Positions 9,242 to 37,365 of a stretch of DNA of 37,365 nucleotides are shown piece by piece. The notes beneath the pieces were generated by a model, which was not told where the DNA came from, searched no databases, and saw only the letters and a program-made list of their open reading frames with translations. The first letter of the stretch is position 1. Each line of letters begins with the position of its first letter. This DNA is from Oscillatoria salina IIICB1. Lineage in GTDB: Bacteria; Cyanobacteriota; Cyanobacteriia; Cyanobacteriales; SIO1D9. The position numbers and the translations under genes are program-made. The stretch is from the NCBI RefSeq assembly GCF_020144665.1, contig NZ_JAAHBQ010000058.1, positions 1 through 37,365 of the forward strand, in the 5' to 3' direction.

Positions 9242-9685
9242 ATGATTCTAAATTACACCTACCGAATCTATCCCGACAGCCAACAAACCCAACTGCTTGA
9301 GAAGTGGTTGGAAACGTTGCGGGTATCTTACAACTATGCGTTGCGGGAAATCAAAGATGGGATGGCTTCGCGTAAGTGTCCCATTGATGCGGGGTTTGGG
9401 CAATTTCGGTCTATCCTCAAGTTTGTCGGCAAGAAACGAGGTTTATTTGTTGGAGAAGTAGACCACAAAGGAACTTCTCCGACTTGCCCCAATTGCCCGA
9501 TCGCGGTAAAGAAAGAACTCTCTGAACGGCTACATTCCTATCCCGAATGTCAGGCTCGAGTAGACCGTGATGTGGCGGCTGCTCAAGAAATCTGTAATCG
9601 TGGAAGAGAAACGTATCGAGGGACTCTGGAAAAGCAAGAAATCGGCTCTCAGCGTCGAGGTGTCGGGGGCTATGTGCCTCGATAA
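9242..9685 (+). pseudogene. tnpB: Internally deleted tnpB (OrfB transposase-accessory nuclease)
   Basis: The 147-codon frame joins a TnpB N-terminus (MILNYTYRIYPDSQQTQLLEKW) directly to a TnpB C-terminus (DAGFGQFRSILKFVGKKRG... CPNC ... DRDVAAAQEICNRG). Full-length relatives are about 400 residues, so roughly 250 residues are missing from the middle. The junction lies near CPIDAG, where both halves may share a short similar stretch. The lost part contains the first two RuvC acidic residues; only the last Asp (DRDVAAA) remains. The second zinc knuckle is also damaged (HSYPEC instead of a CxxC). The protein cannot be an active nuclease. The frame stays open, so a short peptide could still be made. 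Confidence 0.88.
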
Positions 9686-24735: not shown

Positions 24736-26499
24736 TTAAGCATTTGCTAAACTAATAAAGCCCCATCTGTCTTTAACTTTTACTGCTGCTAATCCTTCAG
24801 AAAAAGGTGTCGCATCGGCAAATTGAGGCGGGATTACTAAATTGCCAGTAAGATTAATATAACCCCATTGATTACCTTGTTTAACTTGTGCTAGTCCTTC
24901 GCTAAACCAATAAGCTTGGGCAAACTCTGGTTGAATGATAAAATTTCCTTGGGTATCGATATAGCCCCAGCGATCGCCATCTTTGACTCGTGCTATCCCC
25001 TCGCTATACCAATATGCGTCTTCAAATTGCGGCGCGATCGCAAATTTTCCGCTTTTATCAATATAACCGTATTTTGCGCCCACTTTGACTGGTGCTAATC
25101 CATTAGCAAAGCGATATGCTTCGTCAAATTGCGGTGGAATGACAAATTTTCCACTCTTTTCGATATAGCCTAGTTTCACATTTAACCATTTTTTGGCTTC
25201 GACAGCGACTAAGCCTTCGGAAAACCAACTGGGTGTGAGAAATTGAGGTGCGATCGCGAAATCGCCATTTTTGTTAATATACCCATAGCGAGATCCTACT
25301 TTCACTGGTGCTAATCCTTCGGTAAACCAGTAAGCGTCTTCAAATTGTGGTGGAATAATAAACTTACCACTCTTTTCGATATAGCCCCACATTTTACCTT
25401 GTTTAACTCGTGCAATTTCTTCCTTAAACCAGTAAGCGTCGTCAAATTGCGGTGGGATGACAAAGTTACCGTTAGTATCTATGTAACCATAAAGTTTATC
25501 TTGTTTTACTGGTGCTAATCCTTCAGCAAAACGATATGCTTCGACAAATTCGGGGGGAATGACTAAATTACCTGTTTGATCGATATAACCCCAGCGATCG
25601 TGGATTTTTACTGGTGCTAATCCGTCTACAAAGCGATGTACTTGCTCGAATCTGGGTTCGATGGTAAAGTTAGCTTGAGTAGAGAAGATTATGGGCAGGT
25701 TTTCGGTTATTAAAGCTTGTAAAGCTGCCACGGCTGATGGGTAGCGATCGCGGAAATTTTCTTGGATCATTTTCTCTAAAATCAGCCCTAGTCTACTATT
25801 TTCCCTCACGCGATCGCGCCAATTGATTTTATCTTTTATTTCTTGAGGTGTTAATCCGGTTAAAGCACAAATCCCAATTATTCCCACTGCATAAATATCA
25901 CTACTTAATTTGGGCTGGTTTTCAACTTGTTCTGGTGCTAAATAAGCACTATAATTAACTTGATTCTGATTGTTATTATCTCCTAAAAGGCTAATTTCTT
26001 TGATAGCACCAAAATCAATTAATACAATTTTCCGATCTTCGTGACGGCGAATTAAATTTTGCGGTTTAAGGTTCTGATGAATGATATTATGTTGATGAAG
26101 AATTTGCAAAACTTCCAAGATTTCCTGCAATAAAAATCTGGTTTCTGACTCACTCAAACAGCTTCCTGGTGGTGCTTCTTCACTAAGATTTTCTCCTTCA
26201 ATATACTCTCGCACTAAATAAAATTGCCCATTTTCTTCAAAACGAGCGCATAAATTAGGAATTTGAAATTGATACTTTCCTAAACGATAAAGTAATTGTG
26301 TTTCTCGTTCAAATATTTCCCGCGCTTGAGCTAAAATTCGCTCGTCAGCAGAGCGAGGCTGAAAAGATTTAACGATACATAAAAGATTATCGGGTAAATC
26401 GCGATCGCGAGCCAAATAAGTCTTACAGAAGGCTCCTTCGACTACCTCTTCTAGTAAAGCATAGCGCTGACGGAGAATTTTTTCTCTGAGCATTTTCAA
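24736..26499 (-). CDS. Ser/Thr kinase-like protein with nine WG repeats
   Basis: A 587-residue protein with an N-terminal Hanks-type kinase domain (about 1-265) and nine WG repeats of roughly 33-38 residues (about 290-587). Repeat pattern: FxEGLAPVK...GYIDxxGxFVIPPQFxxAYW. Kinase residues: Lys44 in CIVKSFQ is present and DFG is present (LIDFGAIKE). The catalytic loop, however, reads HQNLKPQNL, so the catalytic Asp is Asn143, and the glycine loop is degraded (EGAFCKTY). It may be a pseudokinase or a weak kinase. Cyanobacteria have many kinases with C-terminal repeats that act as sensors or scaffolds. No membrane segment is seen. Confidence 0.88.
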   Translation of the reverse strand: MKMLREKILRQRYALLEEVVEGAFCKTYLARDRDLPDNLLCIVKSFQPRSADERILAQAREIFERETQLLYRLGKYQFQIPNLCARFEENGQFYLVREYIEGENLSEEAPPGSCLSESETRFLLQEILEVLQILHQHNIIHQNLKPQNLIRRHEDRKIVLIDFGAIKEISLLGDNNNQNQVNYSAYLAPEQVENQPKLSSDIYAVGIIGICALTGLTPQEIKDKINWRDRVRENSRLGLILEKMIQENFRDRYPSAVAALQALITENLPIIFSTQANFTIEPRFEQVHRFVDGLAPVKIHDRWGYIDQTGNLVIPPEFVEAYRFAEGLAPVKQDKLYGYIDTNGNFVIPPQFDDAYWFKEEIARVKQGKMWGYIEKSGKFIIPPQFEDAYWFTEGLAPVKVGSRYGYINKNGDFAIAPQFLTPSWFSEGLVAVEAKKWLNVKLGYIEKSGKFVIPPQFDEAYRFANGLAPVKVGAKYGYIDKSGKFAIAPQFEDAYWYSEGIARVKDGDRWGYIDTQGNFIIQPEFAQAYWFSEGLAQVKQGNQWGYINLTGNLVIPPQFADATPFSEGLAAVKVKDRWGFISLANA

Positions 26500-33486: not shown

Positions 33487-33546
33487 GGCGAGCGATCGCT
33501 CCTCATGAGACAATTAATACAGGCGGCAGAACTCAAAAGGAGAAAG

Positions 33547-34101
33547 ATGCTCAAATCATTTTTTGTCAGTGTCCTAATTATCTTGAGCCTTTGTCTGTAC
33601 GGTTGCTCGACAGGTGTTAGTGGACTACAAAGCTATGTTGATAGCGTGCAGGGGTACGAATTTCTTTATCCTAATGGCTGGGTACAAGTAGAGGTGAAAA
33701 ATTCCTCTGAGGGAGTAGACGCTATTTTTCGCGATATTGTTGAGCGAACGGAAAATTTAAGCGTAGTAATTAGTAGTATTCGCGAAGGAGAAAGTTTAGA
33801 AGATTTAGGTACTCCCTCCGAAGTAGGCTATAGATTTCTGAAAAAAGCCAATCAAGAAGCAAGAAATACTCGGAAAACTGAATTTATTAGTGCCGATTCT
33901 CAAACAGATAAAAACAATCAGACTTACTATATTTTGGAGTATGAAGTAGAACTACCCAACGGTCAAGAAAGACATAATCTTGCTAGTATTGCAGTTAGTC
34001 GCGGTAAACTATTCACCTTTAATCTCTCAACTCGCGAACCTCGTTGGACAAAAGTAGAAAATTTGTTTAAAACAGCAGTAAGTTCTTTCCGAGTTTACTA
34101 A
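33547..34101 (+). CDS. CyanoP, PsbP-family lipoprotein of photosystem II
   Basis: A 184-residue lipoprotein. The hydrophobic signal KSFFVSVLIILSLCLYGC has the lipobox Cys at about 20. A PsbP domain follows (YVDSVQGYEFLYPNGWVQVE, VDAIFRDIVERTENLSVVIS, SEVGYRFLKKA, YYILEYEVELPN, LFTFNLSTREPRW). CyanoP sits on the lumenal side of PSII and helps early assembly. The start is the ATG at 33547 with an AAAAGGAG ribosome site; an open frame from 33505 is spurious. maf follows 111 bases downstream. Confidence 0.92.
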   Translation: MLKSFFVSVLIILSLCLYGCSTGVSGLQSYVDSVQGYEFLYPNGWVQVEVKNSSEGVDAIFRDIVERTENLSVVISSIREGESLEDLGTPSEVGYRFLKKANQEARNTRKTEFISADSQTDKNNQTYYILEYEVELPNGQERHNLASIAVSRGKLFTFNLSTREPRWTKVENLFKTAVSSFRVY

Positions 34102-34212: not shown

Positions 34213-34809
34213 ATGAATTTGCCAAGTTTTATCTTAGCTTCTGCTTCACCTGCTCGTCGTCGCCTGCTGGAAATAGCAGGCATAAAACCGCTTGTTTGTC
34301 AAAGTAATTTTGACGAATCGCAGATCGAGTTAACTGAGGCAGCTCAGTTAGTGCAAAAATTAGCTTTATGTAAAGCAGAAGTAGTTGCAGAAAATTTTAC
34401 TGATGGTTTGATTTTAGGTTGCGATTCGGTGTTAGAAATCGGTGGAGAGATTTACGGGAAACCAGAAAATGCAGAAGTGGCGATCGCGCGCTGGCAGAAA
34501 ATGTCAGGAAATACAGGTATTTTATATACAGGTCATGCCCTAATCGATCGCCTTCAGCAACGGAAAATAGTACATTGCGGTAAAACTAAAGTAACATTCG
34601 CTCAAATCAGCGATCGCGAAATTAGCGCTTATGTCGCTAGCGGCGAACCCCTCAAATGTGCTGGCGCTTTTGCACTCGAAGGAAAAGGCGGACTTTTTGT
34701 TGAGAGCATAGAAGGTTGTCACAGTAACATCATCGGTCTGAGTTTACCTTTATTGCGTCGAATGCTAGCTGAACTTGGTTACAACGTTACTGATTTTTGG
34801 CAAAGTTAG
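34213..34809 (+). CDS. maf: Maf-type nucleoside triphosphate pyrophosphatase
   Basis: A 198-residue Maf/YceF/YhdE-family enzyme that hydrolyses non-canonical or methylated NTPs, a house-cleaning function. It has the substrate loop [17 protein letters not shown], the catalytic block [20 protein letters not shown] with its acidic residue, and [30 protein letters not shown]. Complete length. It lies behind cyanoP; I recall the psbP-maf neighbourhood from other cyanobacteria. The ribosome site is weak. Confidence 0.93.
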
Positions 34810-34811
34810 GA

Positions 34812-35047
34812 ACTGGGGACTGGGGACTGGGGACTGGTGATTAGGGACTGGTGAGTGGGGACTGGGTAAACTATTCGGCATTTTAATCAAAATATCAGCA
34901 ATTGCGGCGAAATGGTTGTAGTACGACCATCTTGGTCGCTACTTGTATCCAATTGAAATCTCACATTCCCAATTTTCCCAATCCCCAATTACCCAATCCC
35001 CAATCCCCAATCCCCAATTACCCAATCCCTAGTCCCCAATCACCCAA
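34812..35047. repeat. STRR heptamers and hairpin between maf and the paralogue pair
   Basis: The 282-base gap has ACTGGGG units (34812-34866), about 100 bases with an imperfect hairpin at 34918-34942, then CCCCAAT-type units (about 34969-35047). The hairpin has CGACCA/TGGTCG inner arms and GTAG/CTAC outer arms. The repeats stop 45 bases before the next start codon. No gene is seen. Confidence 0.88.
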
Positions 35048-35091
35048 TCTTTGATATAGTCAAGGAAATTCCGGATTTGGGGAAGACGATA

Positions 35092-35523
35092 ATGGCGGCA
35101 AGCGACCAATTCAAAGAATATATCAAAGAAGGAAAGATTTTTGAAGCTCTAACGCTAGCTTTGAGTGAAGCAATCGAGCTAGAAATTACGACCTGGGTCT
35201 CCACAGCTAACGATAACCCAAATGGGTCAAATCCAGATCGTCCGGTTCCAGGTAATTGTTTGCGTACCAGGATGAATATGGTAGACGGAGACATCGAAAA
35301 CGAAGTTGGAACTCAGTTTATTGGTAATGCTCCCTACACCGAACTGCGAGAATTTCATTTAGAACAGGTAAAGGAAGGACGTAAAACTATCCAACAAAAT
35401 CTGGAAAGTTTGCAACAAATGTTTGTGGTTTTAGCGAGTACAGCCTCTCAACTGCCCCAAGCATCGCACAGAATAAAAGAAGGAAACCCTGCACTTTCTC
35501 CTTCCCAGGAAGAAGATTTATAA
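35092..35523 (+). CDS. Conserved protein, paralogue 1 of a tandem pair
   Basis: A 143-residue soluble protein of a family I do not recognise. The helix-rich N-terminal part (FKEYIKEGKIFEALTLALSE, then IELEITTWVST) and the block MVDGDIENEVGTQFIG are followed by NAPYTELREFHLEQV and NLESLQQMFVVLAS. The C-terminus is short and polar (EGNPALSPSQEEDL). The ATG at 35092 has GGGGAAG upstream; the frame opens at a TTG 15 bases earlier. The next gene, 55 bases downstream, has the same N-terminal domain, so the pair arose by tandem duplication. Function unknown. Confidence 0.82.
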   Translation: MAASDQFKEYIKEGKIFEALTLALSEAIELEITTWVSTANDNPNGSNPDRPVPGNCLRTRMNMVDGDIENEVGTQFIGNAPYTELREFHLEQVKEGRKTIQQNLESLQQMFVVLASTASQLPQASHRIKEGNPALSPSQEEDL

Positions 35524-35578: not shown

Positions 35579-37365
35579 ATGCCGTCGAGCGACAACTTCA
35601 AAGAGGCAATCAAAGCGGGCAAGCTTAGGGATGCGCTTGTACTAGCAATGAGTCAAGCCATTGAGTTGAAAATTACTACCTGGGTAAGTTCGGCAAAAGA
35701 TACAGCGATCGCTCCACAACCAGGAAAGCGACTGCAAACGCGCATTAATTTGGTTGATGGAGATATCGAAAACGAAATTGGCGATCGCTTTATCGGTACA
35801 GGTCCCTATAGAGAATTGCGACAATTTCATTCTCAACAAGTTGCTTTTGCTAATCAAACCATTCAAGGCAATCTCCAAAGTTTACAACAGCTATTCGCGG
35901 TTTTACTGGCTTGGCAGCGACGGAATCTGGATGAGGAGCGCTCGAGCGTCCAAATATCGGCAGTAGAAACTAGACTACTCGGCTCGGAACCAGAACTGGC
36001 GGATTTATCTAATATTCCTGAAGTTACTTCGGATTTAATCTCCTCTGAGAGCGATCGCGAAATTTCCGCCGAGGAAACTGAGGAAGATGAAGATTGGGAC
36101 GATGAAGTTACAAATTTTCTCGCCTCTCTTCCTTTAGAAGAAACTGAACAAACAAAGCTTTCTCCTGACGAGATTGAAGCAGATTTAGATCGAGAACGCT
36201 TGTCTGCATCTCTGTCTCGAACAGAAGCTTCTCTAGATGAGCAGAATTACTTCGCTCAACCAGCAAATCCAGTGGCGCCAACGCCAGAAATGCCAGTTTC
36301 GGATTTGGAAATAGAAGATTGGGAAGAGTCCGTTCCAGTATATTCTCCGCCAGAAGTAAGCGAAGCCTCAACAGATTCGGTTTCTTCAGAAAGTCTTGTT
36401 GCACAGACAGACGAGCAGTTGAGAGGTGAATATGCAGCTAGAACACCTTCTCTAGGGCTTGAAGAGGAAGATCGCGAGCAAGACTACACGCAACCAACTT
36501 ATCCGGAGGCTAGTCGTATAGAAGAAGATGCTGCTCCTCCAAGGGAAAATTTAATCCTCGCATCATCCGAAGTTACGCCAACTGTTGCTGAGGAAAGAGA
36601 AAATGCCGATACAGATTTAGAAGATTGGGGCGATTTTCTCGAAGAAGAATTATCCGAAACTGAAGCAGAAGATTTGCCTTCGTTTAATCTGGAAGAAGAA
36701 CAGACAGTTACTTCCCGTAGCGATCGCACCACAACAGATTGGGAAGATTCAGATTTATTCGATGAGGAGTTATCCCAACAGGAGACAGCAGCAGAAATAG
36801 CTTCTTGGAATTTACGAGAAGCTGAAGATCGCTCTTTGACAGAAACAGATACTTCTAGGGAAGATATCGCTGATGAAGATGATTGGGGCGATATTTTACC
36901 AGCAGAATCTACTGAAGACTTCGCTGCTTGGGAATTAGAGGAGGAAACTACTACAGCTACATCAGATTCAGATTTTGATGAAGATGGAGAGATTTTGGCA
37001 GAAGATTCTTCAACTCAATCTGATTTACTATCTGAAGAATTAAATGAAGAAGCTACAACTACTCTATCAGCAGCAGAAAGTTTAACTGATGAGGAATTTT
37101 CTTCTCCTGATACAGATTTATTCGATACCGGAGAAACTTCTTTCACACAGGAAACTGAAACTAGTGTTTCCGAGGATGAAGATTGGGGAGATTTAGAACA
37201 AGAGATTTCTTCTCCTGATGCAGATTTATTCGATACCGGAGAAACTTCTTTCACACCGGAAACTGAAACTAGTGTTTCCGAGGATGAAGATTGGGGAGAT
37301 TTAGAACAAGAGATTTCTTCTCCTGATGCAGATTTATTCGATACCGGAGAAACTTCTTTCACACA
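35579..37365 (+). CDS. Paralogue 2 with long acidic, tryptophan-motif tail (partial, runs off the window)
   Basis: The frame is open from the ATG at 35579 (AGGGAG ribosome site) to the window edge, at least 595 codons. Residues 1-115 repeat the domain of the preceding gene (FKEAIKAGKLRDALVLAMSQ, LVDGDIENEIGDRFIGTGPY, NLQSLQQLFAVLLA). The rest is disordered and very rich in Glu, Asp, Ser and Thr. It carries spaced acidic-Trp motifs of the type EDxDWGDxL at about 171, 246, 348, 387, 432, 533 and 569. The end shows tandem 36-residue repeats. I see no membrane segment or signal peptide. Function unknown; the architecture suggests a soluble multivalent scaffold. Its end lies outside the window. 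Confidence 0.85.
   Translation, partial: MPSSDNFKEAIKAGKLRDALVLAMSQAIELKITTWVSSAKDTAIAPQPGKRLQTRINLVDGDIENEIGDRFIGTGPYRELRQFHSQQVAFANQTIQGNLQSLQQLFAVLLAWQRRNLDEERSSVQISAVETRLLGSEPELADLSNIPEVTSDLISSESDREISAEETEEDEDWDDEVTNFLASLPLEETEQTKLSPDEIEADLDRERLSASLSRTEASLDEQNYFAQPANPVAPTPEMPVSDLEIEDWEESVPVYSPPEVSEASTDSVSSESLVAQTDEQLRGEYAARTPSLGLEEEDREQDYTQPTYPEASRIEEDAAPPRENLILASSEVTPTVAEERENADTDLEDWGDFLEEELSETEAEDLPSFNLEEEQTVTSRSDRTTTDWEDSDLFDEELSQQETAAEIASWNLREAEDRSLTETDTSREDIADEDDWGDILPAESTEDFAAWELEEETTTATSDSDFDEDGEILAEDSSTQSDLLSEELNEEATTTLSAAESLTDEEFSSPDTDLFDTGETSFTQETETSVSEDEDWGDLEQEISSPDADLFDTGETSFTPETETSVSEDEDWGDLEQEISSPDADLFDTGETSFT
37101..37365 (+). repeat. 108-bp tandem repeat inside paralogue 2
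   Basis: The block starting CTTCTCCTGA recurs at 37101, 37209 and 37317, a period of 108 bases or 36 codons. Each copy encodes SSPDADLFDTGETSF...SEDEDWGDLEQEI. The first copy differs at a few codons; the second and third are identical as far as the window shows. The third is cut by the window edge, so the real copy number is unknown. Confidence 0.93.

Follow-up and report, generated by a model that had tools for sequence, protein, structure and literature searches.

At the end of a contig from Oscillatoria salina IIICB1, two neighboring genes encode proteins that begin with a similar domain, and only the second continues into a long acidic tail with spaced tryptophan motifs. The locus raises the question of whether these genes form a system of their own and what such a tail might do. 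An initial annotation, made from the sequence alone, had named a multivalent binder, a decoy, and a condensate scaffold as possible roles. We analyzed the window (the whole contig C58, 37,365 bp) together with related genomes and found a cassette of up to four genes, the arrangement of which suggests a protein-gathering hub. The gene system is real and widespread in cyanobacteria and has apparently not been described, though a description under a locus tag may exist; a search of the open-access literature with generic terms and without locus tags returned no title or abstract on it. The novelty concerns the gene system, which matched no described family, and not the principle of recruitment through repeated short motifs, which is known.

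Two Adjacent Genes with a Common Head Domain

The two genes, S and T, occupy the end of the window as follows:

35092..35523, + strand: S, the short paralogue, a head domain followed by an end of about 25 residues (143 aa, ATG to stop)
35579..35920, + strand: head domain of T, residues 1–114, with a predicted alpha-beta-beta-beta-alpha fold
35921..37365, + strand: first part of the T tail, which runs to the contig end without a stop (481 residues; acidic and, as judged by composition, disordered; seven DW(G/E/D) motifs)
37098..37365, + strand: in-frame tandem repeat with a period of 108 bp, 36 residues per unit (2.5 copies, 98% matches)

For S, the ATG at 35092 was preferred over a TTG at 35077, and it aligns with the start in relatives. 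T begins with the ATG at 35579, and its frame stays open to the window end (595 residues). The S and T heads are 61% identical over residues 1–110, which bears out the earlier description of tandem neighbors sharing a domain of about 110 residues. Both are net acidic, with mean charges of −6.6 (S) and −4.1 (T). In the whole genome, S and T are the only two matches to the head, both in a head search and in a search with a profile of head alignment A1, which contains 34 of the 37 heads found.

C58 ends within the 108-bp repeat (its last 268 bases make up the 2.5 copies), and each unit read here encodes one EDEDWGD motif; the missing stop of T is therefore most simply explained by an assembly break. 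A search of this genome with the profile of c1, one of two further families that neighbor S and T in relatives (see below), returned one copy, on the 4,997-bp contig C131. C131 starts inside a tail-type frame of 233 residues with five DW(G/E/D) motifs and eight tryptophans, which ends in a stop:

L117:4295-4996, on C131, minus strand: end of the T tail, 233 residues and stop, placed by gene order

Three bases after this stop c1 (281 aa) starts, and c2 (227 aa), the other family, follows. A stop codon such as the initial annotation had suggested seeking downstream is present at the end of this tail, ahead of the genes expected from relatives, and from the gene order of those relatives we infer that C58 and C131 adjoin and that the C131 tail is the rest of T. 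A join would give T a length of at least 828 residues. The two contigs have no exact end overlap and C131 is without the 108-bp repeat, so the sequence does not fix the number of repeats between them.

A Four-Gene Cassette in Cyanobacteria

The head was present in 23 of 40 genomes (this genome and 39 of its order). Neighborhoods were fetched for 20 of the 22 head-positive relatives (G012 was added later and G030 was left out), and clustering of these 20 yielded S and T, then two more families, c1 and c2. A further 65 named loci were found with a 13-row S/T alignment; being head-seeded, this set cannot contain loci without S or T, and some of its loci come from the same genomes as the 20 relatives. 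Gene order was S-T-c1-c2 in 32 loci, S-c1-c2 in 25, S-T in 4 (three of them cut by a contig end inside T), S-T-c1 in 2, and S and T-c1 in 1 each. The cassette genes of each named locus all lie on one strand, with median gaps of 83 bp (S to T), 24 bp (T to c1), and 10 bp (c1 to c2). S is present in 64 of the 65 named loci and in 17 of the 21 loci of the neighborhood set (20 relatives plus the window). Organisms bearing the cassette include Spirulina, Symploca, Moorena, Coleofasciculus, Prochloron, Roseofilum, and Xenococcaceae. Short and tailed forms thus adjoin in many cyanobacteria, and the pair that the initial annotation put forward as a candidate undescribed system holds as an observation, although it is part of a larger cassette of four paralogues.

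The S-c1-c2 loci comprise 24 from Nostoc, Anabaena, and kin (including one Chroococcidiopsidaceae) and one Spirulina contig; T is absent from all 24 Nostocales-type cassettes (L092–L115). Among 386 genomes sampled across the phylum, 38 had the head; c1 was found in 30, every one of them head-positive. The other eight head-positive genomes gave no c1 at E = 0.01 and no c2, strongly diverged copies being liable to be missed; the final c1 and c2 searches of these eight contained no positive genome, and the same profiles match elsewhere. Six of the eight were read: G012, G142, G172, G206, and G390 carry S and T, and G302 carries T alone. T without S was seen in G002, G005, G014, G028, and G302, the last without any other cassette gene found. 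Two half-cassettes therefore exist, S+T and S+c1+c2, with S common to both and with T-without-S exceptions; the S+T form occurs by itself in some small genomes.

Some loci depart from these arrangements. In L092–L115, c2 is longer (305–381 aa, compared with 206–285 aa in T-bearing cassettes), as if extended where T is missing. In L052, a Spirulina metagenome contig, S is directly followed by c1 and T is missing, unlike in relatives; this is either a real loss or an assembly collapse between similar heads. In Moorena bouillonii (L075, L157), S lies about 0.2 Mb from c1 and a W-acidic tail on one chromosome record. L075 was accordingly rejected as an S-alone locus, and the cassette seems to have been split between S and T by rearrangement.

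Profile-profile comparisons (E values for single comparisons) linked S with T (1.5e-56), c1 with c2 (7.9e-6), S with c2 (4.8e-5), T with c1 (7.6e-5), T with c2 (1.2e-3), and S with c1 (0.01); six control comparisons with maf and psbP, genes flanking the cassette, gave 0.1–0.48. The aligned stretch was the same in all pairs except S-c1, around T.I.L.DGDI.N.I...L......H. The S-c1 match falls in another part of the domain and is no better than that of S with YbaB (0.009). In L046 and L047, the head profile also matches c1 directly, with E of 1e-4 or better. The profiles, and for c1 also the predicted structure, indicate that the four families are paralogous versions of one domain, to which c2 would be assigned by profiles and gene order. 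Mean net charge of c2 is +8.8 (68 proteins), and 11 of 14 c2 proteins looked at, out of the 68, have hydrophobic segments over a simple threshold, which are probably membrane spanning.

A tree of 77 S and 59 T heads (131 columns, unrooted, with unsettled bootstrap) needs 4 changes between S and T labels compared with a mean of 44.5 for shuffled labels, and its starred branches force at least three. A clean split of S and T was not recovered from these heads: one fork includes 74 of the 77 S together with 11 of the 59 T, three S rows (G024, G145, and G390) group with T, and several of these misplaced rows stand on long branches. The tree suggests that S and T are mostly two old lineages, with more than one origin, or exchange between S and T, as a possibility. 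The neighbors are paralogous, as the initial annotation had it, but mostly not products of a local duplication; the tail occurs only on T, but an unrooted tree gives no direction for the claim that T gained it.

Predicted Folds and the Comparison with YbaB

The claim that the head belongs to no recognized family stood up to database searches. S, T, c1, and c2 gave nothing useful in Pfam (including no match to PF02575), NCBIfam, PADLOC, PHROGs, or PDB sequence searches, and no characterized family accounted for the head. By sequence profile, A1 returned three chance-level PDB rows (best E = 0.4), and c1 and c2 returned none up to E = 1.

The structure of the head was predicted by AF2 as a single chain. 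The T head model (34 sequences; pLDDT 83, pTM 0.62) has the elements H2-12, H16-27, E29-35, E51-57, E63-67, and H78-117. The c1 model (67 rows; pLDDT 85, pTM 0.72) has H22-43 and E46-52, helices between 64 and 194, then E210-217, E222-226, H228-232, and H236-275; this order reads as that of the head, interrupted between strands 1 and 2 by a helical insert. Foldseek returned no significant match for either model (best E = 0.68 for the head and 1.0 for c1), and a fold search of the head among viral models gave nothing useful (best E = 0.16).

In VIA-align comparisons of the head, the first five rows were 1ybx (Z = 5.3, rmsd 4.8, 79 residues aligned), 1j8b (5.1, 5.8, 82), 3f42 (4.9, 4.4, 81), 1pug (4.9, 5.4, 83), and 5yrx (4.4, 4.2, 69), followed by an unrelated row at Z = 4.0. 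For c1, the first three were 3f42 (Z = 7.2, rmsd 5.8, 91 of 93), 1ybx (6.5, 5.2, 91 of 92), and 1pug (5.9, 6.5, 93 of 94), with the next unrelated row at 5.7; such Z values may reflect a common arrangement only, a difference of up to 1 between rows counts as a tie, and the proteins behind the two models are themselves related. These entries are the five YbaB/EbfC crystal structures named in PMC9610160, which gives the YbaB topology as a1/b1/b2/b3/a2. No other family stood out in the PDB fold comparisons of the head and c1. YbaB structures hence rank first for the predicted head, weakly.

This ranking raises the possibility that the heads are YbaB/EbfC-like DNA binders in a nucleoid or DNA-membrane system, with the acidic T tail shielding or displacing DNA as a mimic or autoinhibitor. 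The topology (PMC9610160) agrees with the element order of the head and c1 models, and YbaB structures make up the first five rows for the head and the first three for c1; against this stand the lack of a significant Foldseek match and the unrelated rows at Z = 4.0 and 5.7, which make the lead partly a tie, at high rmsd. Profile comparison (hhalign) with 28 cyanobacterial YbaB proteins gave E of 0.009 (S), 0.015 (S+T), 0.023 (T), 0.28 (c1), and 0.3 (c2); the head matches lie in a short, non-corresponding stretch, and that of S+T covers 19 columns in the wrong register. Homology to YbaB is therefore not supported by sequence. The source genome also carries a separate YbaB gene of its own. The S and T heads are net acidic, which alone does not exclude DNA binding, and a pure charge mimic needs no conserved tryptophan. 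Beyond the shared element order, the cassette differs from YbaB/EbfC (PF02575) in the c1 helical insert, the hydrophobic end of c2, and the long T tail, and its DNA binding is putative only. We therefore describe the predicted fold of the head and c1 as weakly YbaB-like, do not file them in the YbaB family, and regard a DNA-binding role as unlikely.

The T Tail and a Proposed Recruiting Assembly

The initial annotation had ascribed to T a tail of 480 or more residues with seven DW(G/E/D) motifs. Indeed, the window holds 481 residues and seven motifs, compared with a mean of 0.37 motifs in shuffled sequences, and none of 10,000 shuffles reached seven. To call the tail almost wholly acidic was an overstatement: D and E make up 32%, with 4% K and R, no Cys, and nine W, at T residues 173, 248, 350, 388, 410, 436, 451, 536, and 572. 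The regular spacing ascribed to these tryptophans is not found within the window, but across 51 tails W-to-W distances do cluster, at 3 and at 21–31 residues. A DNA pattern for the motif matched 29 sites in the whole genome (8 with the pattern reversed as a control). T on C58 accounts for 6 of these and the C131 tail for 5; the other 18 are scattered single sites, with no second cluster.

Motif statistics were computed on 51 of the 59 tails, near-copies having been removed and a few tails cut by contig ends included; the pooled set contains 22,937 residues and 431 W. DW[GED] was seen 137 times (15.0 expected, SD 3.6), [DE][DE]W[GDE][DE] 104 times (3.8 expected, SD 1.9), WGD 42 times (1.3 expected), and W..W 40 times (8.5 expected); none of 200 shuffles matched any of these counts. 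EW alone was not enriched (61 seen, 78.8 expected). In 17 of 19 hand-picked pairs of tails, which are not independent (two with more than 90% identity were left out), W was identical in 91% of 234 aligned cells, compared with 78% for Y, 68% for E, and 64% for D. Tryptophan is the best-conserved tail residue. The multivalent motif claimed for the window is real, conserved, and far above shuffles.

A charge-hydropathy plot places all 51 tails on its disordered side. Tails are 85 to 1,817 residues long and contain between 0 and 30 W, and their composition is more conserved than their sequence. A few are W-poor, with no W in L072, the frame of which may be broken, 2 among the 745 residues of L077, and 3 among the 221 of L080. 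A charge or spacer device with incidental tryptophans, whether for cation, water, or pH buffering or as an entropic bristle, would accord with these properties. It would not call for W as the best-kept tail residue, nor for a strict acidic context so far above shuffles, and we consider it improbable.

The reading that we favor, tentatively, is that the S, T, c1, and c2 cassette encodes a head-paired assembly with c2 at the membrane and T as a multivalent W-acidic recruiting arm. Heads would pair as homo- and heterodimers through the sheet and the long C-terminal helix, and the hydrophobic segments of c2 would anchor the assembly at the membrane. T would project a long disordered arm, in which each (D/E)DW(G/D/E)(D/E) motif may bind weakly to the same kind of basic, tryptophan-accommodating pocket on a client, so that many client copies would be gathered at one place. 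Arm length would have been tuned in evolution by gain and loss of repeats. No candidate for the partner with the tryptophan pocket was identified. S, the most constant subunit, would be the likely common pairing partner, in complexes of S+T in some lineages, S+c1+c2 in others, and all four proteins in roughly half the named loci.

The distribution of the genes constrains this recruiting assembly. Since T is absent from Nostocales-type cassettes, the arm must be dispensable for the role of S, c1, and c2, and since c1 and c2 were not found in five S+T genomes, membrane tethering by c2 cannot be general. The S+T and S+c1+c2 lineages thus imply that the arm and the putative anchor can work apart, which limits models that require all four proteins; they also separate the two without mutagenesis. 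Should the reading be true, the cassette would be an undescribed cyanobacterial assembly with four paralogous heads and a natural arm-length series from 85 to 1,817 residues, a test bed for the valency and spacing of one short motif in recruitment.

Bacterial multivalent disordered scaffolds such as PopZ and CsoS2 likewise have a long low-complexity chain with repeated short motifs. The cassette differs from them in its motifs and in having four paralogous heads, one of them a putative membrane form. The motif itself resembles the W-acidic motif, in which D/E flank a tryptophan within a short disordered stretch and which in SKIP and calsyntenin is bound by the TPR domains of kinesin light chain (PMC6214655). 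T tails likewise have W flanked by D/E in a region disordered as judged by composition. The adaptors described in that source are eukaryotic and have a single or few motifs each (PMC6214655); T tails are bacterial, have 0 to 30 W in (D/E)DW(G/D/E) and WxxW forms, and would have a TPR partner only hypothetically. We take this as a likeness of principle rather than membership. A more specific version, to which we give little credence, is an adaptor hub: a partly membrane-anchored hetero-oligomer of four paralogous proteins with a YbaB-like fold, in which the W-acidic motifs of T, as many as tens of them, would recruit a client of helical-repeat type, as a bacterial counterpart of the eukaryotic W-acidic/TPR pair and possibly a condensate scaffold at the cyanobacterial membrane.

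The annotation had also suggested that the short paralogue could be a partner or competitor. A role of T as decoy or competitor, whether toward S or toward a foreign factor (as in an anti-phage or toxin-antitoxin-like device), would suit tandem paralogues with a common head and a fast-changing tail length, but we found no support for such a role. S occurs without T, with c1 and c2, in 25 of the 65 named loci and is therefore not simply a competitor of T. The best PADLOC match (S, E = 0.0045) is to part of a long MukB-like model; c1 reached 0.047, and T and c2 had none up to 0.1. With no useful PADLOC match, a defense system was rejected as an identification, as was a phage or plasmid origin, with no relative in IMG/VR and no PHROGs match up to E = 0.1. 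Much the same gene order in many lineages, with mostly old S and T lineages, is also unlike a mobile conflict system, and we judge the decoy very improbable. That the open end and the repeat are an assembly or frameshift artifact and T is no real long protein is scarcely credible and, for the gene as such, refuted: C58 does end in a repeat and lacks an exact overlap with C131, but the matching tail end with its stop lies on C131, and T frames, the possible loss or frameshift of which in all close relatives had been a concern, are closed in many other assemblies, among them that of G015, a genome on one contig.

Two genes upstream of S in the window match named families:

33505..34101, + strand: psbP (Pfam PsbP, E = 2.4e-56; NCBIfam PSII_PsbP, E = 2.4e-75)
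34213..34809, + strand: maf (Pfam Maf, E = 5.2e-57; NCBIfam maf, E = 5.4e-60)

maf lies upstream in 16 and psbP in 12 of the 21 loci of the neighborhood set (20 relatives plus the window), and in 25 and 17, respectively, of the 65 named loci, where flanks extend to at most 6 kb. The psbP-maf arrangement is frequent, but Nostoc cassettes are flanked by ftsH- and acetate-kinase-like genes (named by eye), so the flanks of relatives contain no constant neighbor pointing to a pathway; maf and psbP are probably outside the system. Much of the gap between maf and S is filled by short G-rich and C-rich minisatellites of period 7 (34812–34866, ACTGGGG; 34977–35049, CCCAATC), which by eye are roughly mutual reverse complements and possibly constitute a hairpin or an insertion-prone spacer. 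Elsewhere on the contig, also by eye, a short frame at 9242–9685 looks like an IS200/IS605-type TnpB with an internal deletion, its start fused to its zinc-finger end, and at 24736–26499 a serine/threonine kinase-like domain precedes many WG repeats.
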